From: Citrus sinensis
Lineage: Eukaryota; Streptophyta; Magnoliopsida; Sapindales; Rutaceae
Assembly (NCBI RefSeq): GCF_022201045.2
Contig: NC_068557.1
Coordinates: 21,305,501 to 21,369,500, forward strand
Length of the DNA: 64,000 nucleotides
Direction of reading: 5' to 3'
Shown: one piece after another, positions 4,370 to 44,187 of the stretch
Layout: each line of letters starts with the position of its first letter
Position numbering within the stretch: position 1 is the stretch's first letter
Notes under the pieces: generated by a model
The model's database searches: none
Told to the model about the DNA's origin: nothing
The model's input: the letters and a program-made list of their open reading frames with translations, nothing else
Translations under genes and position numbers: made by a program

Positions 4370-5218
4370 AATAGTTATACTTACTGACATCTACATTAAG
4401 AGGTTAAAAAACAAATGACCTTCATGACTAATGGTGGAACTAGTCTTTCAATTTATGGTGCGTTTACTAATCAATAATCGGAATGAACTGAAATCGAAAT
4501 AGGGAATGATAATCAAAATAAATTGTTTGCTTTAGTTATGAGAATCGGAATCGAAATGAAGTATATTGTCATTAATGTGCTTACTTTATCTTGAAATTGG
4601 AATATATCATTACAATTCTAAACTAACTTTAGTTAATTATTGTGAATTAGTACAAGAACGTCTATCGTAGCTTAGCCAACACAATTTATAGGATATGTAT
4701 TTTATTTAAGAGGATACTGGAAGCAAATTGTATAAGAAGAAAATATTTGTATTGGCCAAATTGATACTGAATGGAGCTTTGTCAAGTGCAGGTGGATACT
4801 GTTCAATGGAGCTGTTTAAATATTTTATTTGTTCTTACATTTTCTTTCACATTCTTATATTCTTATCAATGCCAGGGGCCAGAAAATGGCCCATTAGTTG
4901 GGTCCAACAAACTTTTTCAATTATAAAAGAGTGGTAGAGAATATAATATGATTGAGAAAAAAATTGAAAACATGTAACATTATTTTAGAAATCAACAATG
5001 TAATACTAAACGCGGAAAAACTTATGAATTCATATTTCTAAAAAAAGAAAACTTAAATTTTAATAGTTTTATTTCCCTAGCAAAAAAAAAAAACTAGATT
5101 AACAAATTGAGCATTATTTATTCAAAAACAAAATAATATATATATTTTTTCTCCTAAACCTACTTTAGGATTGGTTGGTACCTCAATCTCTTGAAGTACA
5201 AGTACATGGATTCAAAAG
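4370..5218. other. AT-rich spacer, no gene seen
   Basis: This stretch has no reading frame with recognisable similarity. The block at 4455-4600 (GGTGCGTTTACTAATC and 'ggaatcgaaatg' motifs) resembles the end of a plant MITE, but I found no partner terminus. Confidence 0.5.
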
Positions 5219-20606: not shown

Positions 20607-22769
20607 CTATACAGAAGCAGGGGATGGCTGCAAGATCTTCTTCTCCTCTGTTGCCAGCCTCTTGTGTAGTCGCTCTAAATGAAAAGTAAATTCCGCGTGT
20701 AAGTCCCTCAGCAACTTTGCTTTCTTGAACTCCTCAGTTCCAGAATAAGCAAGCTTCAATTCATGGCTAATCCCAGCATTGCCATTCTGTAGTTTCTTCT
20801 GCAAAATGTAATCCATCAAAATCAAGTTTCACAAAGAAGCATCATGCCATCATATCTGATGTTGAATTAAAAAAAGTTAACAATAGCTAACCTGAGATTT
20901 AAGCATACAAGTCCCAGTTGGCGCTGATATATCCCGCCACAAGATGTTTCTGGCCACCACCCACGGCCTGCAGGCAATGCACGCAGTGATTAAAGCAGAA
21001 ATATAGAATCCGTAAATCCAAACAGAGCAGGTTCTTGATGGCTCTCAAAAATATCTTAAAGTATTAAATGGGAGCTGTTAGACAAAGAGGAAATTAGCAT
21101 CATACTTGCACGGCATCGCTTACCTTCCTCTAGAGGATATGATGATATGTCCTGGGTTATTAAAAAATTTACATAAAACTTGAAGATCTTTATGAGTATT
21201 CAACACAATTGCTCCTCGAGCATACAACTCCTTTGACGAACTTGCGAAAACATATGATTGAGATACTATTGAAGTCTGTTGGTGAATGAATTCAGTAATT
21301 GTTGAAGGAGATAAATCTTTCTCCAAGTTCTCAATTAATATCAAGTAATTGTCTGCTCCTCCAAGATCAGCATCTTGCCTGTTGATTTCATTAATATCCT
21401 CAGCCCAACCTACCTTTTAGAAAATGGAAAGAAGTTAAATGGTTAATGAGATGTCCTTTCATAGAAGTCTTAAATTGGAAGTCACTATCAGGAGCACAAC
21501 ATTTTGATAAAAGAGTTGGGTCTTTAAAGCATGGGGACAAACCTTCAGACGGATGAATTTGACTGACCGACCGCTTGGCACACTTTTTACCCTGCAATAA
21601 GTGGAAAAAACATCAATTATTGCTCTAAATGAACGCTTGCTAGTGAAAACAGATTGTACTCGAGCAATTCTAGAACACCATATACAAAATTGACTTGCCT
21701 GCATTAGACACGACAGCTAAACAACTAGCTACTATTTTCTTTATTGCAAGCATTACCACCAAAGGATGTAATATAGCAGATAGAACTTAGAAGTTGAAAT
21801 CTAGCAGTGGTACTTACAATTTTCTCCTTTGCTCTCTCCAGAAATAAAGCCACATTTCGATCGGGTTTCTCCTTAGACTGGACGAGGCATATGTTTTCAA
21901 TCTTCTTCTCCATCATAATGCCGGCACCGGGGCCATGCTGCCAAACAAGTACGAAGGTGCACAAACACTCTTCTTCCCCCTTTGCTCTAGAATGCCTTTC
22001 AGTAATCACCTGCAAGAAGCATATTGTTTTCCGGAACGGGGTTGAAAATGGAAATTTATCATTTCATTCCCATATGAAATTCCCTCCAACAAGAAGGAAT
22101 CATCTAAACATTAATCCAGTCGAACAACACCAAATAGTTACCAGGATCACAACACATCACTCAATTAAAAGTCAATGTTGACTCATTGACATGCACAAAC
22201 ACTTCATTCGGCTTGAGGAACAGAAAATCCTAAAACTGGGTTCGGCTAGTTTCAGATAATTAGATAAAGGTCTCTCCCTCAGAGAGGGAGATCGTGACAG
22301 AAGAGAAGGGGGGGGGGGGGGGGGCCTTTAACATTTTAACCCAAAAAAGATCACATTTTTATCATCGAATTTCAGTGCAGCAAAATGGTCAAAAAAAAGA
22401 GGAAAAAAAGATCTTTTGAAAAAAGAGAGTGGCAGAGAGAAGTAAAGTACTAACGTGTTCCATAACGGCGTCGTAGAAGCGAAGGTCGAAGCCGTTGAAA
22501 GAGTGGGAGGCGCAAACCGGCAAGCCCTCGACGGCCTTGGAGCATTCCTCGTCCTGTAACTGTACCGACACCGGACGGAACCTCCCTTCAAACTCCTTCA
22601 ACTCCTCGAAGCTCTCGAACCTGCTGGCCTCGAACACTTCGTCCAGGTTATCCGAAAACCCCACGTACTTTATCGTCAGCCTCTCGCCTTGAGCGCCGAC
22701 CAGCACGCTGTACCACGCGTCGTCCCCTTCCGCCCGGAACTCCAACTCACTCTCCGCCGCCGCCGACAT
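20607..22769 (-). CDS. SAWADEE-domain protein
   Basis: I read six exons on the minus strand: 22769-22455, 22009-21818, 21591-21543, 21409-21124, 20967-20892 and 20798-20607, giving 369 aa. The N-terminal 1-170 resembles the SAWADEE chromatin-reader fold: an acidic DDAWYSV start, RFRPVSVQLQDEEC, and a second half around LVWQHGPGAG. In SHH1/SHH2 this domain reads histone H3 methylation for RNA-directed DNA methylation. Here no homeodomain precedes it, so it is not a canonical SHH protein. The C-terminal 200 residues (RPWVVARNILWRDI, then a charged helix) are unfamiliar to me. For exon 4, the acceptor 10 nt downstream of the first AG was chosen because the upstream one gives an immediate stop. 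A nuclear role is an inference. Confidence 0.75.
22273..22324 (+). repeat. Perfect inverted repeat and poly-G tract in SAWADEE intron 1
   Basis: TCTCCCTC (22273-22280) pairs perfectly with GAGGGAGA (22284-22291) across a 3-nt loop. It is followed by seventeen G (22308-22324) on the plus strand, which is C-rich in the transcript. Confidence 0.8.
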
Positions 22770-23582
22770 CCAATCAACGGTGTTGGTCAATGTCGGGAGA
22801 TAATTGAACTCACCTTTCTTTCTCGTGTGCTTATCCAATGTCCACCACCTGCGTGTGTTTGTGAGAAGCAAAACGAAACCATGAACAAAACTGGATACAA
22901 GGAGATGGAAAAGGAAACGAAAAAATTGGTGCACTGTTCTGACACGTGACAGGAGCTCGTGATGATAATGATTGAAAAGAACTTTTGGTATTTGTTATTT
23001 TTGAGAATAATATATGAGACTTTGTTTGTCATTCGAGCCCCACCATTTTTTTGGCCCCTCTGCTGATCATTATTAAAGCCCCAGCTCTCAAATGATGTCA
23101 AAAGCTTAAGTAAGGATTGGTCTAGGCCAAAAATCAAACGTGTAAATGTAATCGGAACATGCATGCATCATCTAATAAAGTTTTGTCGCATGTACATTCA
23201 TCTTCATTAATAATGATAATTAAAAAAATATTAGTAATTAATTAAAACAGACGCTATGATTGATTTTATTGTATGGTCGGTAATACGAACTGACTAATCT
23301 CCTGATCGCTTATCGTAAGAAGTGACCGACTTAATTAGTTCATAAAGAAGAGAGCATGGAATTAATTGACCTCCCTCATAACGAACGGCAAATGGAATTA
23401 AGTGCGGCCAGGAGGTTGCATTTAACATCAACAGCAGCTTTAAATTTTGAATCTTCCGACTGTAACTATCACTTTGAAGCTTTCTTTTAGGTTAAAAACC
23501 AAACAAATCTCGCATATTCTGATCGTCCACCTTTTTTCCTTGGGGGGAACTAGCAGGTAAAATGCAGAGACCACAGTTCTCT
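22770..23582. other. Spacer between the SAWADEE gene promoter and the IGPS 3' end
   Basis: No gene is seen. The open frame reaching upstream of the SAWADEE start (to 22934) lacks conserved sequence and is taken as leader. Confidence 0.5.
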
Positions 23583-27345: not shown

Positions 27346-28569
27346 CAGATAAATAGCAATATAATTCGTAATTAAATGAAAGTGAAAATTGCAGTCAGTC
27401 GAGTATTCAAGCACATTTTATTTGACCACCAAATAAAAAGATTTTTTTTTAATCATTTTTTGACCATAAATAAGAGCTGGCAGCAGAGCTGATTCGGAAT
27501 AAGTAAGTTCGGACATGATCAATTTTCAGAGCTTTCTGTCATGATCAACACAGAATGTCAACACAGAATGTCATCTATGAAAGAGTATTATCATATTCAC
27601 AATATAGTTAAGATAGTATCTCAAATGATATGATATTTGTTTTGACCAAATATTTATTAAGAAATATTAGAATATATACACATTAAAGGAAAAAAGACAT
27701 TAAAGTTCTAACATTTATTGTGATGATCACATAGATTCTATTGATTTTAGAAATGATCATACAAATCTTTTTTTAACTATGATATCATATCCTTCAACTA
27801 CAGTCTAATCTTTTATGATACTGCAGTTAATCATAATCTATCTAAACAAAACATAAGACTTTTCAACTTAATATAAATCTTATAAATCAACAGTCGTTTG
27901 TTTTTTCAACTTAATAATTTAATTGACTTAATTTCAATAAATTAACTCATTAAATCTGTTTATTTTTTCAATTTAATGAAAATTTTCAGTCATTAAGTCA
28001 TTAAACTAATTTTTTTAGCTTTTTATTTAATTTAAAAAGTTTGAATGATATTACTAAAACATATTCTCCAAAGTAAAATATACCTAAATAATTAATTTAT
28101 TTTCATCTTTACCTAAATAAACTTACAAATTGGTATTACTATTCGTCTTTGTAACTTGTGATAATATAGTGTTGTTATCATTATTATTTCTATCTTTTTT
28201 TTTTAAGTTAGCTTTATTTATCTTTATAATTTGTATGAATTTTTTTAATATAAACTTCATAAATACAATAAAATTTATTAACATGTTCTAATTTTGAATA
28301 TTAAAGGGCTATATATTCACTCAAAAGTAATTTATATTATGATAAAATACTATCTTATTTATATTCATTGAGATTTCATTCTTTGTTAAGGGTACAAATG
28401 TAATAGTACTAATTTTCATATTTGAAGTTAAAAAAAGAAAAACTTAATACTTATTTTCAAAAATTCAAATAAAAGATAAATGTCATTCAGATTTAGATAT
28501 TACACTCTATTCAGAATCCAGACTAATTCAAATTTATTTGGATTTTGAAAAAATAAAAAAACACCTCAT
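27346..28569. other. Very AT-rich region between the direct repeats
   Basis: No gene is seen. It contains a short direct repeat of 'caacacagaatgtca' at about 27546-27572. It could be the body of a non-autonomous element bounded by the direct repeats, but no primer-binding site is recognisable. Confidence 0.4.
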
Positions 28570-29250
28570 AAGTGTAAAATGAAACATATATTAAGTAAAT
28601 GGAATATAAGACTCATAAACAGAAGGTAAAAAAAATAAATTAACATGAGAATGATAAATTAGTATATCATTGGTAAATAAAAGAAAATTTTATAAATATA
28701 ATATAAAATTTATAAATCAACATTAAGTGTAAATTAAAACATAAACTAAGTTAACGGAACATAATAATTATAAATTCAAAGTAAACAAGTAAATTAACAA
28801 TAGAATGGTAGATTGGCATATCATTGGTAAACAAAATAAAAACTTACAAATATAAGGTAAAACTTGTAAATCAACATTAAGAGCAAAGTAAAACATAAAT
28901 TAAATAAATGAAGTGCATGATTTGCAAAAGGAAGGTAAAACAAGTAAATTAACATTAGAGTGGTAAATTAGTATACTATTGGTAAACGAAACAAAAAAAT
29001 TAACAATTATAATTTAAGACTTGTAAATCAACATTAAATATAAAATAAAACATAAATTATGTAAATGTAATATGAGACTTGTAAATGGAAGGAAAAATAA
29101 GAAAATTAACAATAGAGTAATAAATTATTGTATTATTGGTAAACACAACTAAAACTTATAGATGTAACATAAAATTTGTAAATCAACATTTATTGTAAAA
29201 TAAATTTAAATTTTGTAGATTATGCCTAAAACTTGTAAATAAAAAGTAAA
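28570..29250 (+). repeat. Tandem repeat, about 155-bp period, roughly four copies
   Basis: The phrase ATTGGTAAA recurs at 28669, 28823, 28978 and 29135, spaced 154, 155 and 157 bp. Each is preceded by an AAATTAACA..AGA.T.GTAAATTA block and followed by a 'cttgtaaatcaacattaa'-like block and 'aaaacataaatta'. The copies are diverged and have no coding potential. Confidence 0.85.
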
Positions 29251-29650: not shown

Positions 29651-30511
29651 GTCATAAAGATAACTTGATAAGAATCTAAAATTTTAATCTCATTAAAAGT
29701 CAAAACCAAGTTTTCAATTATGATTTTAAAAGATACTCTCTAACTTTTATGCATCAAATGTAATCCTCCAAGAAAAATACCCGAAGCGTCGATACCGGAA
29801 ATAGTATGAGGTGATAGTATCTCTTTTTATTGTTGAACAAAATAATGAACTCCTAATTAATCATGAATTACATCCAACTTGCTTTCAACCATTCCTAGAA
29901 GTGAATGCAAATACGTGTGCCGGTAATGGACGTAATTAGGAGGCAAGAAAGAGCATAGTTATTACTTCGTGGTGGTCAGGGGCACTCAGTACAACGAAGC
30001 AACAATAATAGATGCCACCAGAAATGGAATGTTTATGAGAGACATAATAAGGACTATAGTGTAAAAATAAAAATACTAGAAATGGTAATGAAGAAATTTG
30101 TATTGATTTGAAGGAAAAGGACATTGATCATGCACATGCCTTATAGATAAATATTTATTAGACTTCTACCAAGCATCTAAGAAAAACAAAGGAAATATTG
30201 AGATTAATTTATTCAATAACTCTCATCTTGTTGATTAGATTCATCTTGATGTCTCTAATTTCTTTGAAAGGATATGAGGAAAAATCAATCACTCAATAGG
30301 TGATGGAAATGTCCACACTAATTAAAGCTCTCATTATTATGCTATAATTATTAAGTTACCAATAAGTTAATTTTTTTTTATAGTTTCATCATATGTACTT
30401 AATATTTATATTCAATCTTGATGTCTAACATGAATTTTTGTTTAATATAACGTTGTAGATTATATAAACAAACAAATTATCTATTTTGGAGACGAAAGTT
30501 ATCGATGTATG
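29651..30511 (+). pseudogene. copia-1: gag remnant left of the Athila insertion
   Basis: Across several frames the translation reads as a Ty1/copia gag: a FHASNV-like start (about 29750), EQNNELL (about 29840), a gap where a zinc knuckle would be, then FYQASKKNK (about 30158-30185) and a DVSNFFE-like segment. Stops and frameshifts are frequent. The reading reaches the Athila target duplication GTATG (30507-30511) and continues in the same sense after 42946. Confidence 0.7.
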
Positions 30512-30781
30512 TGTTGAGTGTTAGAAAATGCATATTTATAAAGGAAAAAACCGTCATTTTACATTTCAAGTCTTACTAACAACCCTTACTTTTATGTATT
30601 TAACCTTCTTGTGATTTAATTACATGTGTTTTATTTTAATTAAGTATTTTATGTATTTTAGGGGCATTATAGTCATTTCACAATAAAGGAGAGATCAGAC
30701 GGCAAAACGGACATCACTTTTGAACTCAGGACGGTCGAAAACCTTAAGAGGAACATAAAAGGAAAAATGACACTATTCATA

Positions 30782-31121
30782 TGTACGGTACTATTCACGT
30801 GTACGGTACTATATACGTTACTGTTCACAATACTGTTCACATAGACGGATCGATGACGTGGCATTGACCGATGATATGGCATTGACTGATGAGGTGTCAC
30901 GATCCTATTGGACTAAAATTCTTATGTACTGTTGATGGTGACGTGGCAGCATATCAGTGGATGAAAAATCTCGCGTACGGTACATGCATCACACATGATT
31001 ATTTTCAACCAAACCGCGTTATTGTTCATCCGAGTCAAACCGCGTTACTGTTCATCCGGGTCAAACTGTATTACTATTCATCTACGTGGTCAAACCGCGT
31101 ACTGTTGACTGATGACGTGGC
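30782..31121 (+). promoter_or_regulatory. Athila U3 motif cluster (ACGT boxes and short tandem repeats)
   Basis: Three TGACGTGGC words (30854-30862, 30939-30947, 31113-31121) match bZIP (TGA or ABRE-like) sites. A tandem array of a 26-29-bp unit starting AAACCGCG or a variant runs 31011-31091 and repeats the phrase ACTGTTCATC. Upstream, GTACGGTACTATTCA is repeated at about 30783-30811. The cluster ends about 60 bp before the TATA box, as an enhancer would. Confidence 0.6.
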
Positions 31122-31179
31122 GCAATCCTGAGCGTCCAAACTGGTTTTAATCCGATGGCCATGATTTACTTGATGTATC

Positions 31180-31187
31180 TATAAAAA
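31180..31187 (+). promoter_or_regulatory. Athila TATA box
   Basis: TATAAAAA followed directly by a GC-rich hairpin (31188-31203). The same arrangement is found in the 3' LTR. Confidence 0.75.
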
Positions 31188-31856
31188 GGGGGCCTCTCCC
31201 CCCTAATTTGATATCTCTGAATCCATTTTTGGGATCCATTTTCTGTAATTCCTTCTCCATCTTGTATTTTCTTCGTATTTTAATAAATTTCCATTTTGCC
31301 CCTAGTTCAATTATGAGTGGCTAATTTTCTTTCAAGTTTGGGTTGAAGTTGAAGTCTCAACATGTGTCATGGGCTTTATTTGGTAAATTTATTTTCTCTT
31401 CCCCTCTAGTTTTTGTGGATGTTTTGACTTTTCGTCAACAAATAATACTAATCTTGTCTAGTACCGCCTTGGTTTCACCGGCCCTCTAGTATAAGGTTAT
31501 TATTATTTGGCACGATAAGCCCTTAGCACCATATTGATTAGAGCGTGGTTCATGAGGTGTGGATTCCCCCCTCATGATTTAATTGGCATTAATACGGATT
31601 ATTTAGCCCATGATGCATGTTGATACGGATCCAGATACCCAAGTACGTCATTTTAATAGAATTTATTCTTGCCATTTTAATTTAAGTTTTAACATATTCC
31701 AAATCATTTCCACCACAAATCCAATCACCCATTTACAAAATTAATTCTACACAATTAAAATCCACCTCCTCGTGGGATCGACACTCGTCACCATTAGTCT
31801 ATACTACAATAGATTCGTGCGCTTGCGAGTACAGTAAAATTTGCACAACAAGTTTT

Positions 31857-31874
31857 TGGCGCCGTTGCCGAGGA
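31857..31874 (+). other. Athila primer-binding site (tRNA-Asp)
   Basis: TGGCGCCGTTGCCGAGGA, 6 nt after the LTR, matches the complement of the 3' end of plant tRNA-Asp at 17 of 18 positions. The leader runs from here to the gag start. Confidence 0.88.
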
Positions 31875-32216
31875 GGTAAGTAATTTTAATTCATATAATT
31901 AAATTTTTTTTAATAATTTCTTTTATTTATTTTCTTCTATTTTTTAATTAAAAAAAAGTGAATCTACATTTAAAGGTTAGTATTTCTTTTCTTTTTCTCT
32001 TCTTTAAAATTCTGTGATTTAATTTTCAATTTATTTTTCTTTGTAATTTTTTTAATTTATTAATTTAATTTTTAGTTAATTTATTTCACGTATTTATTTT
32101 TGTGTATTTTTATAGAAAGGTTTTAATAGCGCAATAAGGTTAGTATCATAATTTCTCCCTCTTATTTATTTTTATTTGTTTTGTTCCCATCTTTATTTTC
32201 ATTTTATTTGTTTTGC

Positions 32217-33701
32217 ATGCATGGTCGTAGGTCATTATTACATAATCTTGAACCTATAGACCTTGAACTAGAAAAAACACTTCGCACACACAAACAAATT
32301 AAAAATAAAATGGATTTGCAACCACAGGAGAGGCCATTTAAGGACTACTTCAGTCCTTTAGCTAATTTGAGCACATCATGCATAAAATACCCTAATGTAG
32401 CTGCTAGGAGCTTTGAACTAAAACCTAGTGTGCTAAATTGTCTCCCCACATTTTATGGCCTAGAAAATGAGGATCCATATAATCATCTGAATGATTTTCA
32501 TGCCATTTGTCAAACTTTTAAATATGAAAAATTTTCAGACGATGATGTTAAACTCAGATTATTCCCATTTTCTTTAAAAGATAGAGCCAGTTCATGGTTA
32601 AATACTTTGCCTACTAATAGCATCACATCATGGGAACAAATAGTTACAAAATTTTTGAATAAATATTTCCCAGTGCATAAAACCAATGCTATTCGCAGGG
32701 AAATCTCGGAGTTTACCCAAAGAGAGGACGAGCAATTTTTTGAAATATGGGAGCGATTCAATGGGCTACTCTTGAAGTGTCCACATCATGGGTATGAGAA
32801 ATGGCACCAATGCCAATACTTTTTGGAGGGATTATTGCCGAATGTGCAAGAATGGCTAATGGCAACAAGTGGAGGAGAGCTAATGTCAAAAAGTGCATCA
32901 GAGATTTGGGAATTCTTCCAGCGACAAGCGGATAATTCCCAACAATGGAGTCGATCACTCAGGAATACTAGAAGAATTAAAGGAGTAAATGAGGTTCACA
33001 TTGGCGAGTCAAGTTCAGAAATTAAAGAAGTCAAAGCGATAATTGAAGGTCTCTCTCGACAAATAGCATCGTTATCGACTGCTAAATCAACAGAGCCACA
33101 TGACCATGACTCATACTCAGATCAAGCCAATGTCATAGGTGTAATGAGAAAACCATCGAATTACAACCCATACTCCAACACATATAACCCTGGATGGAGA
33201 GACCACCCCAATTTTTCATGGTCTCAAGGATTCCAACAGAACGGACCAGCAGCTCCAGCTCCAGCTCCACCAATTCCACAAAATCCTCAAGCCTCTTAGC
33301 CACCATTTAGACTATACAATCAGAACCAGAACTACACTCAGCCCAGACCATGGGAGGATGCATTCCAGAATTTCAAGAATGTTACTCACTCCACGATTGA
33401 GCAACAGAACCGCACCATTGATGGACTACGAAATGAGTTGAGAGCAGGCTTCAATTCACAAGCCCAATCAGTTTCAAGCCTTGAGAAGATAGTGGGACAA
33501 CTTGCTTCTTCAGTTCAGACCTTGGCAATGACCGTTGAGAAAGGTAAGTTTCCAAGTCAACCAGTGCCTAACCCTAAAGGAGTGCATGAAGCAAGTACCA
33601 GTTCACCACAGCAGCATGGAGAAGTCAAAGTAGTAATGACCTTGCGAAAAGGAAAAGAAGTCGACAACAAAGTGGAGATGCCTGTGACAAAAGAAAATTA
33701 A
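32217..33701 (+). pseudogene. Athila gag (capsid), broken by stops
   Basis: Structural protein that would package element RNA. The first ATG of the frame is at 32217. A second, with a better defined start MDLQPQ, is at 32310. The retrotransposon gag domain covers roughly residues 60-210: FYGLENEDPYNHL, SSWLNTLP, SWEQ...KFLNKYFP, EISEFTQ and a YFLEGLLP end. The frame is stopped at 33297-33299 (TAG) and 33699-33701 (TAA). Gag and pol share one frame, so the intact ancestor had a single gag-pol polyprotein. A Pro/Ala-rich stretch lies just before the first stop. Confidence 0.9.
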
Positions 33702-36700
33702 ATTGTACCTGTGAATGTTGAGGACTCATCACCGGCGGAGAAAGACGAAAACAACTCACGAGAATATGTTCCGAAAGCTCCATTTCCTCAGAGGTTAGCA
33801 AAAGGAAAAAAGGGAAAATCCACAGGTGAGATTCTTGAAATCTTCAAACAGGTAAGTGTTAACATCCCTTTGCTTGATGCTATTAAACAAGTTCCATCTT
33901 ATGCCAAGTTTCTTAAAGACCTTTGTACTAAAAAGAGAAATATGCATGTTCAAAAGAAGACATTTTTAACAGAAAACGTTAGTTCTATACTCCAACATAA
34001 AATTCCTTTAAAATGCAAAAACCCAGGCTCCCCCACTATCTCATGTAGCATAGGGAACCACACAATTGAGAATGCTTTGTTGGATTTAGGAGCTAGTGTA
34101 AATCTTTTACCTTACTCTGTATTCGTGAAACTTGGACTGAGAGAATTACACCCAACTCCAGTGGCGTTACAGCTTGCAGATCGGTCCACGAAAATACCTC
34201 GTGGCATTGTGGAGGACGTGCTTATCCAGGTAGACAAGTTTTATTTTCCTGTTGATTTCATTGTAATTGACACTCAACCAATACAGGATTCAAGGAAGCA
34301 CATCCCCATTATTCTAGGCCGACCTTTCTTGGCAACTGCGGATGCTCACATTCAATGCAGGACTGGAAATATGCAGTTGTCCTTCGGCAACATGACTATG
34401 GAGCTGAACATCTTCAATATTGCTAAACAACCTCACAATGCAGATAATGGAATTGTTGATGTGGATTTAATTGAAACAATAGTTGATCACACTTTTCTTT
34501 CAAACCTTAGTGATGATCCTTTACAAACATGTTTAATTCACTTTGGTTTTGATTTTGATATTGACAGATCGGTTGATGAGGTCAACGCCCTGCTTGACTC
34601 AACACCATCTATGGACACTAATAAATAGAAGTCAAGAGTTGAGCAACTAGCACCATCAGAGAAGAAACTCATCCCATCATCAGAATCACCACCGAAACTC
34701 GAGCTCAAACCATTACCCAACACTCTGGAATATGCATTTTTGGGAGAAGAAAATACTCTACCGGTAATCATCTCATCATCCCTAAATGACGAACAAAAAG
34801 GTAAGTTGTTGGATGTTTTGAAAAAGCACAAAGGAGCATTAGGATGGACCATAGCAGACATAAAAGGTATAAACCCAGTAGACTGCATGCATTACATTCA
34901 TATCGATGAAAATGCTAAATCTACTAGGGAAATGCAACATCGGTTAAATCCTAACATGAAAGAAGTTGTTAGAACATAAGTCCTTAAGCTATTAGATGCA
35001 GGTATCATTTACTCAATTTCTGATAGTTCATGGGTCAGTCCTGTACAATTCGTCCCCAAAAAGTCAGGAGTCACAGTAGTTACGAATGCTGATAATGAAT
35101 TGATACCCACTAGAGTAACTACAGGATGGCGTGTTTGCATTGATTATAGAAAGTTGAATTCCGTCACACGTAAAGACCATTTTCCTTTACCATTTATTGA
35201 TCAAATGCTTGATAGATTAGCAGGTCATGACTTTTATTGCTTTCTAGATGGCTACTCAGGATATAATCAGATTCCCATAGCACCAAAAGATCAAGAGAAA
35301 ACTACTTTCACTTGCCCTTTTGGCACTTTTGCATATAGGAGGATGTCATTTGGATTATGTAATGCACCTGCTACATTTCAACGATGCATGTTGAGCATTT
35401 TTTCTGATATGGTTGAACGATTCCTTGAAGTCTTTATGGATGACTTTTCTGTCTTTGGTGATTCGTTTGATCAATGTTTACAGCATCTAACACTAGTTCT
35501 GCAGAGATGTATCGAGAAGAACTTGGTCTTAAATTGGGAGAAATGTCATTTTATGGTAAAACAAGGTATTGTTCTCAGTCACATCATTTCGAGCAAAGGT
35601 ATTGAGGTTGAGAAAGCCAAGGTGGATCTCATTTCTAATCTTCCTCCACCCAAAACAGTCAGAGAAGTAAGATCTTTTCTTGGGCATGCTGGTTTCTATA
35701 GACGTTTCATTAAAGATTTTAGCAAAGTTTCTAGACCCTTATGCAATTCACTTGCTAAGGATGTACCTTTTATCTTTAGTGATTCATGTCTTATGGCGTT
35801 TGAAAAATTAAAACAGTTGTTGACATCATCACCCATCATTCAGGCCCTAAACTGGAGCTTACCATTTGAGCTAATGTGTGATGCATCTGATTATGCAGTA
35901 GGAGCAGTATTAGGACAAAGAGTTGATCGAATTCCCCACGTTATTTACTATGCTAGTATGACATTAAATGATGCACAGTTGAACTATTCAACTACTGAAA
36001 AAGAAATGCTAGCAGTAATGTTTGCATTGGAAAAATTTCGGTCATATCTCATTGGTTGTAAAATAATTATATTCACAGATCATGCTGCTCTTAAATATTT
36101 TTCTCACAAAGAAAGATGCAAAAGCTAGACTAATTCGTTGGGTGTTACTTTTGCAGGAATTCGACTTGGAATTCAAAGATAAGAAAGGGACAGAAAATGT
36201 TGTGGCAGATCACCTCTCTCGTCTCCATTTTGACACATTTACAGAATCATTACCATTGAATGAGTCATTTCCAGATGAACAATTAATGAATGTGGAAGTA
36301 TTACCTTGGTATGCTGATATAGTTAATTATCTTGTTACAGGTAAACTTCCAGAGTATTGGACCAAGCAAGATAAGGCTAAATTCTTTGCAAAGATAAAAA
36401 ATTTCTTTTGGGATGACCCGTATTTGTTCAAGTATTGTGCAGACCAAATTGTTAGACGATGCGTCCCAGAAAGTGAAATTCAGAACATCCTTTCATTCTG
36501 CCATGAACAAGCTTGTGGAGGCCATTTCAGCGCTAAGAAAACAGCGACTAAAGTTTTACAATGTGGTTTCTATTGGCCAACTATATTTCGAGATGCTTAC
36601 ACTTTTTGTTCTTAATGTGATAGGAGTCAACGAATGGGGAGCATTACACGAAGGAATATGATGCCACTAAATCCAATTTTAGTGGTTGAGATTTTTGACG

Positions 36701-37602
36701 TATGGGGTATCGACTTCATGGGACTCTTTCCCCCGTCTTTTGGCCATCAATACATATTGGTTGCTGTTGACTACGTATCCAAATGGGTAGAAGCAATTTC
36801 ATGCAGAACTAATGATCACAAAGTGGTGATAGGATTTTTGAAAAGCAACATTGTTTCACGCTTTGGATTCCCTCGAGCGATAATCAGTGATGGTGGTGCC
36901 CACTTTTGTAACAAAGCATTCAAGGCTCTTTTGACAAAGTATTCAATCACACACAAAGTGGCGACCCCATATCATCCGCAAACCAGTGGCCAAGTTGAGA
37001 TATCCAATCGAGAAATAAAGCACATACTAGAAAAAACGGTGAGGCCAGATAGGAAAGATTGGTCATTAAGACTTGATGATGCATTATGGGCATATAGAAC
37101 GGCTTTTAAGACCCTGATTGGGATGTCACCCTACAGGCTAGTGTATGGAAAAGCTTGCCACCTACCTGTGGAACTTGAGCATCGTGCATATTGGGCCATC
37201 AAGAAATTCAATTTTGACATGCAGCAAGCCAGCTCAGAAAGAAGATTACAGCTGGCAGAACTTGAAGAAATTCGCAATGACGCATACGAAAATGCCAAGA
37301 TTTACAAGCAACGAATGAAAGTCTTCCATGACAAGCAAATTATGAGAAAATCTTTCACTCCAGGTCAGAAAGTGCTTTTATTCAATTCTCGCTTGCACGT
37401 ATTCCCAGGTAAGTTACGCTCTCGTTGGTTTGGCCCATTTATTGTTCATACTGTTTTTCCACATGGGGCAATTGAAATTAAGAACCCAAAGAACAGTGTC
37501 ACGTTTAAAGTTAATGGTCGAAGATTAAAGCCATATCTAGAGTACCAACCACATGGAGAAGACACCGAAATAAATTTGAGTGACCCACCAAATTTGAATT
37601 GA
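33702..37602 (+). pseudogene. Athila pol: protease, reverse transcriptase, RNase H, integrase (broken)
   Basis: Domains in order: protease with the Athila-type DLGASVN active site (about 34084-34104); reverse transcriptase 35130-35720 with VCIDYRKLNS, FLDGYSGYNQI and the FMDD catalytic box (about 35434-35445); RNase H from about 35870 with CDASDYAVGAV and FTDHAALKY; integrase with an HHCC zinc finger (about 36499-36630) and the D..D..E core ([19 protein letters not shown]) at 36700-37010. Lesions are in-frame stops at 34626-34628, 34977-34979 and 36613-36615 and one frameshift near 36095-36110 in RNase H. No chromodomain follows the integrase, as expected for Athila. Confidence 0.93.
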
Positions 37603-37735
37603 TTTATTTTTTTCTTCTTTCTTTTCGTTGATTTAATTTTGTTTTCTTTCTTTATATTATTCTTCTGCTAATTGAAATTATTTTTGCATAAGTGTGTTTG
37701 TTTAACTATTCAGTTTTCTTTTATCATTTTTAATC

Positions 37736-37969
37736 ATGAGTACCTTACTTAGACCGTTCCTCCTGAACATTCTTAAACCACTTCAACGTGTCAAAACTCA
37801 TCTCAAACGGCAGATTCAATTTTGTAAAACACGTCGCATTTGGGCTCTACAACCACCAGAGTTAGTAGCCTATGTTGAGGGTTTAGAACACCAACTCCGA
37901 GACATTGAGAGAAGTGTTTACGACATCCAGTTGGAGCTTGAGGTAAATTCAATAAGAGGACGATTTTAA
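37736..37969 (+). CDS. Athila accessory frame 1: small coiled-coil protein, unknown
   Basis: An intact 77-aa frame starts 133 nt after the integrase stop, in the sense direction. The N-terminal half is basic (KTHLKRQIQF, CKTRR). The C-terminal half (about 45-70) has a heptad-like pattern, VEGLEHQLRDIERSVYDIQL, suggesting a coiled coil that could oligomerise. No signal peptide or membrane segment is visible, so it does not look like an envelope protein. I do not recognise the family. Expression could come from a spliced or subgenomic element transcript. Confidence 0.5.
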   Translation: MSTLLRPFLLNILKPLQRVKTHLKRQIQFCKTRRIWALQPPELVAYVEGLEHQLRDIERSVYDIQLELEVNSIRGRF

Positions 37970-38110
37970 TTTTCTTTGTGTGTTTTAATTTGTTTTTCTG
38001 TTTGTGTGCTTTAGTTTGTTACCCCGGTGAAGTGGCGGATAACGGTACTCCGTGACAATCAAGTCAGTTACTTCAGTTTCCCATAATAACTGATATTCTG
38101 AGGCGAAGGT

Positions 38111-38668
38111 ATGGACAGAAACGAGATTCTAGCAAAGCTTCACAAGCGATTCCTTTCACTTCCTCAGAATGCCCTCCTTACGATTTATAAAGCTCGGTCC
38201 AAACGCATGCGATTACTCATGAGGAATAACATACCTGCTGATATCCGTTGGTTAATCGAGGCGAAAGTACGATTGGCAGGTGAGTTACCTCCAACATTTA
38301 TTGCATTCATGCCTGGTTGTGGTAAAGGAAATTATGCAAGAAAACGACGAGCTCGAAGAATTTCTGTTGCTTGTCATAAGTGTGCCAGAATAAGTTGTAA
38401 TAAAAACCCATGTTCTTTAGGAATGGTGTCTGATAACAGGGAATATAAGATTCAATTCATTAGGGATGGCTTGAATAAGGAGTCATTGGATGATATCATT
38501 TTGTCTCTTGAAACGCATCCCAATAGATATGTGCAAGGAGCGATTCTCCAGTTATGGCCATTATTCCAGAAAGAGTATGCACGATATAGTCTCGGGAATC
38601 TGACTATAAACGACCCTGTTTGCCAGTTTATAAGAAAACTAGATAGGAAGCCTATCCTCGACCCATAG
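38111..38668 (+). CDS. Athila accessory frame 2: Cys-cluster nucleic-acid-binding-like protein
   Basis: An intact 185-aa frame starts 141 nt after frame 1. The core has an Arg-rich patch (77-83, RKRRARR), a four-cysteine cluster Cys88-x2-Cys91-x4-Cys96-x4-Cys101 with His89, and then a YKIQFIRDG segment (112-120). This order of basic patch, small zinc-type cluster and short FIRDG-like tail resembles the small cysteine-rich nucleic-acid-binding proteins of carla-, viti- and allexi-type plant viruses, some of which suppress RNA silencing. The N-terminal 70 and C-terminal 65 residues are extra. The similarity is judged by eye only. An independent zinc-finger protein is the alternative. No lesion is seen, unlike gag-pol. 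Confidence 0.55.
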   Translation: MDRNEILAKLHKRFLSLPQNALLTIYKARSKRMRLLMRNNIPADIRWLIEAKVRLAGELPPTFIAFMPGCGKGNYARKRRARRISVACHKCARISCNKNPCSLGMVSDNREYKIQFIRDGLNKESLDDIILSLETHPNRYVQGAILQLWPLFQKEYARYSLGNLTINDPVCQFIRKLDRKPILDP

Positions 38669-39012
38669 AGGGCGTTCAAACCGTTTCTGGACGTAAAATC
38701 AGAGGAAGATGTGAGCCACAGTCGCAACTACTTGTAAATATCATTTTTACTTTACTGTTATTTTATTTCACTTCATTGTTGTTTTATTGTTTGCATTATT
38801 TTCTTTAATAATTTTATTACTGTTTTCTTTTTCCTTATTACTGTTTGTTTTTTCATTTTTACTGTTTTCTTTTTTACTCGCAAGTCACGTGCTTACGCGT
38901 TATTTGACACTGACATGTTACCTCATACACAACTGTGACCCACTGTCACCAAGACTCTTAAATGTGATTTTTTTTGTCAAGCACTCACGAATTATTTTTG
39001 AGAAATATTCCA

Positions 39013-39681
39013 ATGGCAGCTACTCCAAATAGACAATTCAAGAACATTTGTGTGCTTTCTGGATTTACCTATGGCAAACATAAAGAGTTCGTTGAGGCAG
39101 CCATCGATCTTGGTCGAAGTATAGCAGAGAGAAAATTACACTTGGTGTACGGAGGAGGTAACCGAGGGTTATCAAAAATGGTCTCAGAAGCAGCTTTTAT
39201 CAGAGGAAGTCAAGTGTTAGGCATCATCCCAAGAGTCCTAAAACCATTGGGCAGTTCGTCTGACTCATCAACTGGAGAAGAGTTAGTCGTCTCAGGTATG
39301 TAAGAAAGAATAACTGCAATGCTTAATCATGCTGATGCTTTTATTTTCCTTCCAGGAGATCTTGCAACACTAGAGGCACTTATCACACTAGCATCTTGGG
39401 CCCATTTGCACATCCACCAAAAACCCATCGGTTTGTTAAATGCCAATAACTTTTATGATGGTTTTATCGCATTTCTTAACCATGCAATAAAAAACTATTT
39501 CATTTCTTCTAATGTGAAAAAACTTTTTATTTGTGCTCACACTGCTAATGAGCTACTTGATATGTTACAAGCTTATAAACCGGAGCCAGACCCTTGGACA
39601 TTTGTGTTGGAGTGCCCAAATAATGATGGTAACAGTAGCAGCAGTAAGAAGTACAAATTAGATTTAACTCTCCGCCTGTAA
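39013..39681 (+). pseudogene. Athila accessory frame 3: captured LOG-like cytokinin phosphoribohydrolase
   Basis: LOG enzymes release active cytokinins from cytokinin riboside 5'-monophosphates. This intronless copy has the family fold throughout: a FKNICVLSG start, LHLVYGGGNRGLSKMV (substrate-loop glycines kept), QVLGIIP, HADAFIFLPG, ASWAHLHIHQKPIGLLN and a C-terminal helix. It differs in key places: the PGGxGTxxE motif reads PGDLATLEA, losing both motif glycines and the final Glu, which is catalytic in the family. A TAA at 39301-39303 interrupts the frame and reading resumes in the same frame. Apart from that stop it is open for 222 codons, close to full LOG length. Plant LOG genes normally have several introns, so acquisition through RNA is inferred. 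Confidence 0.85.
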
Positions 39682-41550
39682 ATATTTTCTTCTGTGTTGC
39701 ACCACCCAGGTGATATCTTCTAAACTCTACTTCTTTCCTTTCAAACATTGAGGACAATGTTTCGTTCTGGTTGGGGGGAGGGAATAGTCGACAATTGTGG
39801 AATTTTGGTTAAGTTTTTACTAATTTTTATTGTAGAAACTAACTGTGGCTAACTTTTTGTGTCGAAGATGGCTGAATATGGAGTGTAGTGACTCTAGAAA
39901 CGCATCTTCATCGTAAAAAAAAAATTAAAAAACAAAAAAAAATTCAGACATTTTCTTTTTCTTTATTATGTTTTTATGTTTATTTTTCTTCTTTTTAATT
40001 TCTCCTCTATAAATATACATTTTCCAACTTGTGAGTCGAAGATGGCTGAATATGGAGTGTAGTTCCTCTAGAAACGCATCTTCTTTAAAAAAAATATATA
40101 TTTTCGTTTTCTATCATTTTACGTGTAACTTTTCTAATTAGTTTTTATGCATCATTTTCACATTTCTGCATGCATATTTTCCTTTCATGTTTAGAATAGG
40201 TTGGGGGTAGAATGTTGTTTAAAAAAATATATATATATTTTGTGATTTGTTTTAACATTGGATGACATGATTAATTTCAAAGTTTAGTATTTGTATTATC
40301 TTTGGTCTTAAGTGATGTTACATTATGTTTGCTACTCTACATGTTGATGTCGGAGACAAATATGCGTTGCTTGAAGGAATGAACATTTCATAATAAGTAC
40401 CAAGTGAGTTTTTGAGCCTATTATTTTTCTTGGAGAATAACCCTTTTGCCCACTCTTTATACAGCTTAGCAGTTTATTATTTTACACACGATCTCTAAAT
40501 TGCTTTTGAGTTAACCCTTAAAAAAATTGTATAATAAAAAAAAAAGAAAAAAATGTGTGTTGTTACATTGGGAGGCCCATCTAACTAGTAGATATGGATG
40601 ATTATTTAGAGCCCTAAAAGACGATGGAAAAGCCATCTTTGATCCGTTTGAGTCTTTCTAGCCATCCCTTTTATTAAATATCCATAGTTAACCCTTTTAA
40701 GCCTTTAAAAAAAAAACATTTTCTTTGTCAACTTATCATCTTGACCCACTCCGATTTAGAGTATTACCCGATGTCTTATAAGTTCCATCACCTATTTATA
40801 TTTGAGAAAAATGTAAATAATTATTTTGTTCAGTGAAGTTATGCCAAAAAAAAAGAGAAAAAAAAAACAAAAGTTGTTTCAAAAGAATAAAAAAAAAATA
40901 GGTGAAATCCACCTTGCAACACAAAAAAAAAAAAATTCTCTGCATTTTTCTAAACATACACTTTGTTTTCCTTATTTCCCTTCTTTGTTAGCCACGTCCC
41001 TAGCCTACGTTACGTCCTAATAAAAGTCCTTCTTGATTTTAGGGAACTATAGTTTGAAGTAGAAGCTAGTTATATGGGCTAAAAAGATGTAGTAATGCAT
41101 AATAAAAAAAAAGATAAATAAAGTAGGTTGACTAGCATTTTTGTTTGACTTGAGTTCGTATTATTTCTAAGCTGAGGGCATATTTATTTCATCTTGGTGA
41201 GAGCATGTGATATCACTTCTTTATTATTTTCTCTCTCAATTACCATTCATTGGAGTGACTATTTTTATTGGTTTCAATTTCTTTATGAGAGTGTCACTAC
41301 TTCTAGTGAGATTTTGGGGTTTGACATGTCATTCTTGAAAGTAGTTATAACAAAGTCTACTGGGCTGATTCATGTGGATGGTTGATGTGGGTGTGATGTT
41401 GCTTTAGACTGGAGATAATACTTATACTTTTATTTGATTGCTATCATTAATCTGATGGAATAAATACGAGTGTTTCTATTAAAAAAAATAATTATTTTGA
41501 ATTTGAATTTTGTTTTTGCTTTATTTGCTAGGGACTAGCAATAAGCTGGT
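39682..41550 (+). other. Athila long non-coding 3' region
   Basis: About 1.9 kb of AT-rich sequence without conserved frames lies between the LOG-like frame and the polypurine tract. It includes two extra GGTTGGGGG-type purine tracts (39770-39781 and 40199-40208) besides the real one, and a duplicated hairpin motif. GAGGACAATGTTT precedes the first purine tract. Confidence 0.7.
39861..40083 (+). repeat. Duplicated 49-nt hairpin motif in the Athila 3' region
   Basis: Two nearly identical 49-nt copies (39861-39909 and 40035-40083) start GTCGAAGATGG and end ACGCATCTTC. Within each, GAAGATG pairs with CATCTTC around a ~31-nt loop. They are separated by 125 bp of A/T-rich sequence. In RNA they would form two equal stem-loops. 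Confidence 0.85.
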
Positions 41551-41559
41551 TGGGGGGTG
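41551..41559 (+). other. Athila polypurine tract
   Basis: TGGGGGGTG immediately before the 3' LTR is the expected primer for plus-strand synthesis. Confidence 0.8.
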
Positions 41560-42941
41560 TGTTGAGTGTTAGAAAATGCATATTTATAAAAGAAAAAATC
41601 GTCATTTTACATTTCAAGTCTTACTAACAACCCTTACTTTTATGTATTTAACCTTCTTGTGATTTAATTACATGTGTTTTATTTTAATTAAGTATTTTAT
41701 GTATTTTAGGGGCATTATAGTCATTTCACAATAAATGAGAGATCAGACGGCAAAACGGACATCACTTTTGAACTTAGGACAGTCGAAAACCTTAAGAGTA
41801 GCATAAAAGGAAAAATGACACTATTCATATGTACGGTACTATTCACGTGTACGGTACTATCTACGTTACTGTTCACAACACTGTTCACATAGACAGATCG
41901 ATGATGTGGCATTGACCGATGATGTGGCATTGATTGATGAGGTGTCACGATCCTGTTGGACTAAAATTCTTATGTACTGTTGATGGTGACGTGGCAGCAT
42001 ATCAGTGGATGAAAAATCTCGCGTACGGTACATGCATCACACAGGATTATTTTCAACCAAACCGCGTTATTGTTCATCCGAGTCAAACCGCGTTATTGTT
42101 CATCCGGGTCAAACCGTGTTACTATTCATCCACGTGGTCAAACCGCGTACTGTTGACTGATGACGTGGCGTAATCCTAAGCGTCCAAACTGGTTTTAATC
42201 CGATGGCCATGATTTACTTGATGTATCTATAAAAAGGGGGCCTCTCCCCCCTAATTTGATATCTCTGAATCTATTTTTGGGATCCATTTTCTGTAATTCC
42301 TTCTCCATCTTGTATTTTCTTCGTATTTTAATAAATTTCCATTTTGCCCCTAGTTCAATTATGAGTGGCTAATTTTCTTTCAAGCTTGAGTTGAAGATGA
42401 AGTCTCAACATGTGTCATGGGCTTTATTTGGTAAATTTATTTTCTCTTCCCCTTTAGTTTTTGTGGATGTTTTGACTTCTCGTCGACAAATAATACTAAT
42501 CTTGTCTAGTACCGCCTTGGTTTCACCGACCCTCTAGTATAAGGTTATTATTATTTAGCACGATAAGCCCTTAGCACCATATTGATTAGAGCGTGGTTCA
42601 TGAGGTGTGGATTCCCCCCTCATGATTTAATTGGCATTAATACGGATTATTTAGCCCATGATGCATGTTGATACGGATCCAGATACCCAAGTATGTCATT
42701 TTAATAGAATTCTCTTCAATTTATTCTCGCCATTTCAATTCCAATTTCAGAATTTATTCTTGCCATTTTAATTTAAGTTTTAGCATATTCCAAATCATTT
42801 CCACCACATATCCAATCACCCATTTACAAAATTAATTCTATACAATTAAAATTCACCTCCTCGTGGGATCGACACTCGTCACCATTAGTCTATACTACAA
42901 TAGATTCGTGCGCTTGCGAGTACATTAAAATTTGCACAACA
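41560..42941 (+). repeat. Athila 3' LTR (1382 bp)
   Basis: Nearly identical to the 5' LTR, with the same TATA box and motif cluster. It is 43 bp longer because of an extra 'aattctcttcaatttatt'-type segment near 42710-42755 that repeats neighbouring sequence. One of the three TGACGTGGC words is mutated here (GATGTGGC, about 41902). Confidence 0.95.
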
Positions 42942-44187
42942 GTATGCTTGGTTGATAATGCAAGCACACATACTATTCTTTAAGATAAAAACTATATTTT
43001 TTTAGAAATAGAATTACTTGAAGGATATCTTACCCTACAGACTTAATAGAAGGTTTAAAAAGAGCTCGAATGTGTTAGCAAGAATGCTTTATATTTAACA
43101 AGATCTAAAAGAAATTTGCGTAGCTTTAAGATATCCACCAAAAGGGATATCATATTGAGACTTTAAATAAAAATAATGTAAAAACTCTCTGCACGATTAA
43201 AAATGTCTCAAAAAAGTAATACAAATTAGAAAAGCTTCTAACATTTTCAGTAGGATTGTATACACAATTTTAAACGCGATTGAGAGCTATGCTGTAATGA
43301 ACCAAAAGTTCACAAATCTAAAAATATTTAATTGTAGCATGATTGCATTGACACCCGGGATCTATAATGATGCGTAAAATTCTTAAAAATTCTCAAAAAT
43401 ATCGATTAAATAACTAGAAGATTCTATTGTCCTATGAGTTGTTTGTACTGCTTGCTTACAATGAAAATTTATCATTAGACTTATTCTAAGGTTGGTCATG
43501 AATCTCTATTATTTTTACAAAGAGTTTAAAAAGACATATACGGACCAATCTATCCATTTAGTAGACTATTTTATTACTTTATGCTTTTGATTGATGCATC
43601 TATACAATGGTTATAGGTTTGTTTAATGTCCACACATAATGCTACATTTGCAAGATTGCTTGCCTAAATTATAAGATTAAAGCACAATTTCCATACAATC
43701 AAAACAATGTATCTAGATAATGTTGATGAGTTCACATCTAAGACATTTGATGACTACTATACATTAGTTGGGATTGATGTTGAACATTCGGTTCCACATG
43801 TACATAAACAAAATAAATTTACATAATCATTGATTAACCAGTATAGATAATTGTGAAAAGTTTACTTACGTATACAAAATTACCAAAATCTGCGTGGGTT
43901 ATACTATTTTACATGCTATGGCATTAGTCCACCTTAAAATCACTAATTATCATTGATATTCTTTATCGAAAGTTGTACTTGGTCAATAAGTCGATATTTC
44001 CCATCTGCATACTTTTGTTTGTGCTGTACATATTCCTATATAACATCTTCAATGCATAAAGATGAGATTTTGACATCGTTTAGGGATTTATATCGATTTT
44101 ACCCCACCTTCAGTTATTAGATATCTTGAACCTCTTATGGGTGGTCTTTTCACTGTATGTCTTGGCGATTGTCACTTTGATGAAAGA
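42942..44187 (+). pseudogene. copia-1: protease and integrase remnant
   Basis: Immediately right of the Athila target duplication the copia reading resumes with LVDNASTHTIL (42950-42983), a degenerate aspartic-protease site. A gag-pre-integrase region follows, then integrase pieces, including an LIDAS core (about 43590) and DNVDEFTSKTFDDYY (43718-43760). It ends with a region reading GDCHFDE at about 44164-44184, where the mitochondrial insertion begins. Many stops and frameshifts are present. Confidence 0.75.

Follow-up and report, generated by a model that had tools for sequence, protein, structure and literature searches.

An Athila-like retrotransposon family of Citrus sinensis carries a captured, selected LOG-derived gene that probably no longer releases cytokinin

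The window analysed here is a stretch of 64,000 nucleotides from Citrus sinensis (NC_068557.1, positions 21,305,501 to 21,369,500 of the forward strand), and window coordinates are counted from its first base. A complete Athila-like LTR element spans 30512-42941 and is flanked on both sides by the target-site duplication GTATG. Two additional ORFs, both in the sense orientation, lie between its integrase and its 3' LTR. The features of the element are as follows.

30507-30511, no strand: target-site duplication GTATG, 5' copy
30512-31850, + strand: 5' LTR (K2P 0.027 to the 3' LTR)
31857-31869, + strand: primer binding site, complementary to the 3' end of tRNA-Asp
31874-31881, + strand: perfect splice-donor consensus AGGTAAGT, directly after the primer binding site
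32181-33299, + strand: gag (Retrotrans_gag; Pfam)
33711-34628, + strand: aspartic protease (Pfam)
35100-36128, + strand: reverse transcriptase and RNase H; frame interrupted near 36082-36128 in the window copy
36082-36615, + strand: reading resumed in another frame; contains the integrase zinc-binding region (Integrase_H2C2)
36634-37602, + strand: integrase core (rve; Pfam), no chromodomain reported
38111-38668, + strand: second extra ORF, Carla_C4 / Viral_NABP family, 185 amino acids, intact
39013-39681, + strand: LOG-derived frame (SLOG/Lysine_decarbox) with one nonsense codon at 39301-39303; intact family copies exist
41548-41557, + strand: polypurine-rich tract preceding the 3' LTR
41560-42941, + strand: 3' LTR
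42942-42946, no strand: target-site duplication GTATG, 3' copy

Outside the element, an ORF with a SAWADEE domain (22389-22934, − strand; PF16719, E = 7.2e-21) marks an ordinary host gene region, and a tandem array of about four 155-base units occupies 28569-29204, upstream of the element.

The order of domains (gag, protease, reverse transcriptase/RNase H, integrase) is that expected for the Athila lineage of non-chromovirus Ty3/gypsy elements, and the Pfam-scanned stretches of the element yielded no chromodomain and no second RNase H. The thirteen bases of the primer binding site are complementary to the 3' end, with its CCA, of a tRNA-Asp gene found in this genome. Of 16 pattern matches, one (L095) was retrieved, and ARAGORN identified it as a tRNA-Asp(gtc) gene. 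This primer is one of the types used by non-chromoviruses, for which tRNAs for Ala, Arg, Asp, Lys and Trp have been described (PMC6317226). The Athila ORF-1 domain PF03078 was absent from the Pfam matches in seven scanned stretches, which is not decisive for a minority feature present in only 16% of Athila elements (PMC6317226). Domain order, the lack of a chromodomain and second RNase H, and the tRNA-Asp primer together lead us to class the element as Athila-like.

The two LTRs differ by 29 transitions, 7 transversions and 43 gap columns. In addition to the nonsense codon in the LOG frame, pol is damaged: the reverse transcriptase/RNase H frame stops at 36128, and another frame resumes from 36082. 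The window copy is a family member that died only recently. The sense strand of the element holds five copies of the consensus AGGTAAGT (31874, 33542, 33850, 34799 and 37407). The whole window, both strands taken together, has seven where 1.8 are expected, and none of 100 shuffles reached seven. The copy that follows the primer binding site is a possible donor for spliced subgenomic RNAs; acceptor-like sites, with 61 in the element, are too common to be informative.

The LOG-derived frame begins with the ATG at 39013 and ends with the stop at 39679-39681, and its lone in-frame TAA is codon 97 (39301-39303). Searched separately, the two pieces on either side matched PF18306 (E = 2.4e-7) and PF03641 (E = 2.4e-20), and each also matched Arabidopsis At2g37210/2a33 (E = 7.7e-16 and 2.1e-21). 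Because both pieces independently match LOG-type families and solved plant LOGs, the assignment is not a product of chance. TIGR00730 was matched above its cut-off by all 33 scanned members of the LOG family (set A3). The NCBI LOG equivalog cut-off was missed, with the family protein P0002 reaching 87.9 of 300 bits, a threshold that may be too strict for plant LOGs. The first-pass annotation had described a complete Athila element with matching target duplications and, between integrase and the polypurine tract, a sense, intronless LOG-family frame with a single stop at 39013-39681; its coordinates are correct, and the element, with its LTRs, flanking GTATG copies and ordered domains, is as it described, which we word as Athila-like. 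Just 3' of the LOG frame, a repeated unit (GAAGATGGCTGAATATGGAGTGTAG...CTCTAGAAACGCATCTTC) with self-complementary ends is present at 39855-39925 and 40029-40099, its two copies 86-89% alike and 174 bases apart.

The other additional ORF (38111-38668) was overlooked in the first-pass annotation. Among 39 scanned members of its family (set A2, E at most 0.001), 30 matched PF05515 (Viral_NABP) and 29 matched PF01623 (Carla_C4), with a best E of 1.1e-8; the window copy alone reached E = 0.0063 to PF01623, below the Pfam cut-off. Among the 120 of 250 protein matches listed, the named relatives came from Citrus, Xanthoceras sorbifolium, Acer yangbiense and Populus x canadensis, and clusters held up to 566 members; these numbers suggest that the relatives outside this genome also sit in elements. 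Scans of viral contigs with the LOG, the NABP-like ORF and the integrase found no relatives, and a scan of genome contigs found two bacterial loci only.

The arrangement seen in the window belongs to a large family. Across the genome (299.7 Mb, 11 contigs), the PGDLATLE motif written as a degenerate DNA pattern had 891 exact matches (460 + 431) against 0 for a reversed-pattern control, which rules out a one-off passenger. Three family searches of the genome returned 1560, 2094 and 2117 first-look candidates, rather than confirmed copies, with 150 scored in each case. A protein search gave 548 matches; among the 120 listed, all named ones were from Citrus and the largest cluster had 705 members. 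The best full-length protein relative was 96% identical and came from Citrus x changshan-huyou. We retrieved 72 LOG entries, 71 of them usable, with 57 distinct sequences; because five places were represented twice, the entries cover 67 places including the window. In 70 of the 72 entries (exceptions, L039 and L049), the LOG had an NABP-like ORF upstream on its own strand, at most 800 bases away, so the LOG lies in the same place in related elements, the relationship that the first-pass annotation had asked to see. Ten annotated Citrus gene models fuse both ORFs, three of them (P0027, P0062 and P0100) holding only part of the NABP-like ORF. In a second sample of 12 copies picked by the neighbour ORF instead of the LOG, 11 had the LOG and one (L088) lacked it.

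The sampled copies sort into four subfamilies, A to D. Thirteen places of subfamily A (L013-L022 and the G000 places) have an identical score of 485.8 bits and 96% identity to P0243, the kind of uniformity that a very recent amplification burst would leave. In subfamily D, median synonymous divergence over 38111-39681 is 0.093 in the LOG and 0.017 in the neighbour ORF, and we suspect mosaic copies produced by recombination.

We surveyed the active site in 138 protein representatives and the 57 distinct DNA copies, using the residue numbers of Corynebacterium LOG (CgLOG), which coincide with those of P0002 by alignment. In CgLOG, Arg99 and Glu122 are the proposed catalytic residues, the AMP-binding residues include Gly116, Gly118, Thr119, Met96, Lys100 and Glu121, and Met96, His97, Lys100, Glu125 and Trp129 form the prenyl pocket (PMC4979012). 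In the element family, the PGGxGTxxE loop typically reads PGDLATLEA. Position 122 is never Glu (Ala in 51, Thr in 3, Val in 2 and Ser in 1 of the 57 copies), position 116 is Asp in 57/57 and position 118 is Ala in 56/57; within the prenyl pocket, position 97 is Gln, position 100 is Ile in 56/57 and position 125 is Thr in 57/57. These six positions are altered in all four subfamilies, the sole exception being Lys100 in one of the 138 proteins. Met96, Arg99, Thr119, Glu121 and Trp129 are mostly retained (Arg99 in 54/57 and Trp129 in 52/57 copies), and through residues 99, 119, 121 and 129 the protein may still bind some nucleotide. AlphaFold models were poor (mean pLDDT 38.6 and 53.9). Judged by these residues, the LOG-derived protein is very probably not a cytokinin-activating enzyme, and the description of the frame as cytokinin-activating in the first-pass annotation does not survive the loss of the PGGxGTxxE loop and the replacement of Glu122 in every sampled copy.

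The frame was nevertheless kept under selection. By NG86, with copies from one genome, LOG dN/dS between subfamilies was 0.17-0.23 at dS of 0.50-0.92, compared with 0.58-1.02 in frame +1 and 1.18-1.91 in frame +2. Ratios this far below the wrong-frame range of 0.58-1.91 indicate that the LOG protein has been kept by purifying selection in the lineage, as the first-pass annotation had supposed when it proposed dN/dS across copies as a check. The 57 copies contain 23 in-frame stops, compared with 838 and 1186 when read in the two other frames. Within subfamilies, dN/dS was 0.45 (A), 0.61 (B), 0.49 (C) and 0.16 (D), in a main sample picked by LOG match score, which biases these ratios down; the higher values in A-C are as expected of decaying copies and also of weaker constraint. 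In the sample picked by the neighbour ORF, LOG pN/pS was 0.24 over nine full-length gapless copies, eight of them without a stop, a figure that omits L086 and L090 (matched in two pieces) and L088.

The same pattern emerged at the level of sites. Of the 138 proteins, 93 were long enough for this analysis and 92 were used, P0025 being left out of the subfamilies. Differences fixed between subfamilies numbered 2 at 37 host-invariant kept sites versus 43 at 129 other core sites (0.05 versus 0.33 per site; Fisher p = 0.0015), with a further 4 at 15 changed sites and 19 at 32 tail sites. Private variants, counted in the 80 proteins of subfamily D, numbered 5.14 per site at kept, 5.13 at changed, 4.92 at other core and 5.38 at tail sites, and 6.78 in the nine N-terminal residues. 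Individual copies decay without restraint, but the lineage that went on replicating did not. For the neighbour ORF (63 usable entries, 43 distinct), dN/dS between subfamilies was 0.21-0.43, with out-of-frame controls at 0.70-1.46.

Comparison with a LOG of the host points to the route of capture. The host LOG L078 of the same genome matches Arabidopsis LOG3 only in exon pieces (residues 1-35, 32-72, 74-108 and 107-179, of which the fourth contains an additional internal stretch), whereas 71 of the 72 element entries give a single uninterrupted alignment of 200 residues or more. The absence of introns from the element LOG, set against the exon pieces of L078, makes capture through mRNA likely, in agreement with the acquisition through RNA and the intronless frame described in the first-pass annotation.

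A host-like LOG motif pattern, which detects only the exact unbroken motif and misses any host LOG whose motif is interrupted by an intron or differs in a base, identified three places genome-wide: L078 itself, L077 and L076. The latter two are decayed elements in which integrase and an NABP-like ORF or its remnant are followed by an intron-free LOG with PGGLGTLEE. They retain Arg99, Glu121, Glu122 and the loop glycines, while position 100 is already Leu and position 125 already Thr. When the L077 piece served as a protein query, L077 and L076 were the best two matches, and the others listed among the 150 scored were 51-57% identical. In trees built with IQ-TREE on small data sets, L077 + L076 (support 99) and the A-D family (support 100) were jointly split from plant and bacterial LOGs (support 99); as old and young LOGs group together, we rejected the idea that this genome made independent captures. 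In this comparison with two LOGs each from plants and bacteria, the plant pair had support of 98 and the bacterial pair 99, and the element clade fell outside LOG3 + LOG8 (support 98), a placement that may reflect long-branch attraction. The simplest history would be one capture, with the active site lost before amplification. From the tree we infer that change began in part of the prenyl pocket and reached the catalytic loop afterwards, ahead of the divergence of the sampled subfamilies. Judged from motifs, the ancestor of L077 and L076 may have been an active cytokinin enzyme; in these two decayed copies, Lys100 and Glu125 are already changed. L076 also holds a second divergent LOG frame (4365-4946, − strand), on the opposite strand and about 1.6 kb from the old LOG copy, that is 61-65% identical to P0002 and P0243.

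In aggregate, these observations are best explained, with a probability of about 0.72, by a captured LOG that lost its active site and became a selected accessory gene, probably for something other than cytokinin release. Under this reading, a spliced host LOG mRNA would have entered the family ancestor once, behind a carlavirus-type nucleic-acid-binding ORF. In the family that amplified, all four sampled subfamilies have replacements at the catalytic Glu, at the glycines of the phosphate loop and in the prenyl pocket, and purifying selection kept the altered protein while hundreds of copies arose. Since the active site is lost yet the protein is selected, its selected function is probably not cytokinin release. 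With less certainty, the protein may keep the LOG fold and work by binding; a selected pseudoenzyme of this kind is our best reading. LOG active sites are built from two subunits (PMC4979012), which makes host LOG the first candidate partner; mixed dimers would lower cytokinin activation where the element replicates. More tentatively, the two ORFs could form a host-manipulation cassette in which a virus-type NABP, with relatives in other rosids, accompanies a pseudoenzyme LOG that forms mixed dimers or acts by sequestration and so disturbs host cytokinin activation or some other nucleotide signal; this is possible, and we hold it only as a minority view. If true, it would be, to our knowledge, the first retroelement to hit a plant hormone pathway with a dead copy of the host enzyme.

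Other readings of the same data differ in what they ask of the protein. The LOG product might instead be a structural or RNA-handling helper in the element's own particle, with no host target, in keeping with a neighbour ORF of a nucleic-acid-binding family and with the joint travel of the two ORFs; nothing links the LOG protein to the particle, and we regard this role as doubtful. A dead LOG pocket might still bind an adenine nucleotide and thereby sequester a signal used in immunity or by a hormone, for example one of the phosphoribosyl-AMP type associated with plant TIR proteins. The mostly retained pocket residues M96, R99, T119, E121 and W129 would suit such a sponge, but Asp at 116 in the phosphate loop should repel phosphate; we consider this reading unlikely. 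An active enzyme that raises host cytokinin or cell division, as the first-pass annotation envisaged, accords with the PF03641 and TIGR00730 matches above cut-off and with Arg99 in 54/57 DNA copies. It is contradicted by the missing Glu122 (57/57), Gly116 to Asp (57/57) and Gly118 to Ala (56/57), and by a score below the equivalog cut-off, perhaps too strict for plant LOGs; Ala substitutions at crucial active-site residues of CgLOG, S19A excepted, cost almost all activity (PMC4979012). On the lost active site we rejected this candidate, which we consider highly improbable. We give hardly any weight to a neutral passenger whose frame is open only because copies are young: private variants spread about evenly over site classes and within-subfamily ratios of 0.45-0.61 in A-C fit it, but between-subfamily dN/dS of 0.17-0.23 at dS up to 0.92, with its wrong-frame controls, and pN/pS of 0.24 in a sample chosen regardless of the LOG do not.

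Most additional ORFs of plant LTR retrotransposons lack known domains (PMC9289625), and whether they function is described as an open question (PMC6317226). Here, such an ORF has a known source gene, its active-site loss can be traced stepwise in one genome and it was selected nonetheless, making its function directly testable. The virus-type neighbour suggests that genes have passed between retroelements and plant RNA viruses, in one direction or the other; no title in our literature searches dealt with a retrotransposon that carries a carlavirus-type protein. Citrus is infected by mandariviruses, one of which has a cysteine-rich protein that suppressed local silencing (PMC12172455). The family also carries a warning for annotation, as many listed Citrus 'cytokinin riboside 5'-monophosphate phosphoribohydrolase' proteins look like retroelement pseudoenzymes.

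LOG-type domains in such elements are not new in themselves. Alvarado-Marchena et al. 2022 (PMC9289625) report a YgdH/LOG domain in Gypsy consensus sequences of Citrus sinensis, C. clementina and Populus trichocarpa and cite Steinbauerova et al. 2011; their Citrus elements very likely belong to the family described here, as judged by the shared domain. Section 12 of that paper gives domain presence only, without active-site loss, selection, old relatives or a neighbour ORF, and Vicient and Casacuberta 2020 make no mention of ygdH, lysine decarboxylase or LONELY GUY. The novelty that the first-pass annotation saw in the locus thus narrows to the altered state of the gene, its history and its neighbour: the lost active site, the selection and the virus-type ORF are unreported in the literature we found, in which subscription papers are thinly represented.

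Relative to the plant LOGs At2g37210/LOG3 (2a33; E = 1.3e-43 for P0002) and At5g11950/LOG8 (1ydh; E = 7.6e-39), the element LOG is similar in length, but it is intron-free, has lost the catalytic Glu and PGGxGTxxE, and bears an extra C-terminal tail ending in KKYKLDLTLRL; its stem branch, estimated with FastTree, is 1.04 versus 0.20 for LOG3. With carlavirus and other viral cysteine-rich NABPs (PF01623, PF05515), the neighbour-ORF family shares a basic stretch and a Cys-rich region, which we take to be a zinc finger, whereas it is encoded by a retroelement, is about 182 amino acids long and has a conserved C-terminal half. The closest parallel in kind is the AlkB-type RNA demethylase ORF of orchid Gypsy elements, likewise a captured host-type enzyme retained over replication (PMC9289625). 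The orchid enzyme is active in vitro (PMC9289625), whereas the active site of the element LOG appears to be lost.
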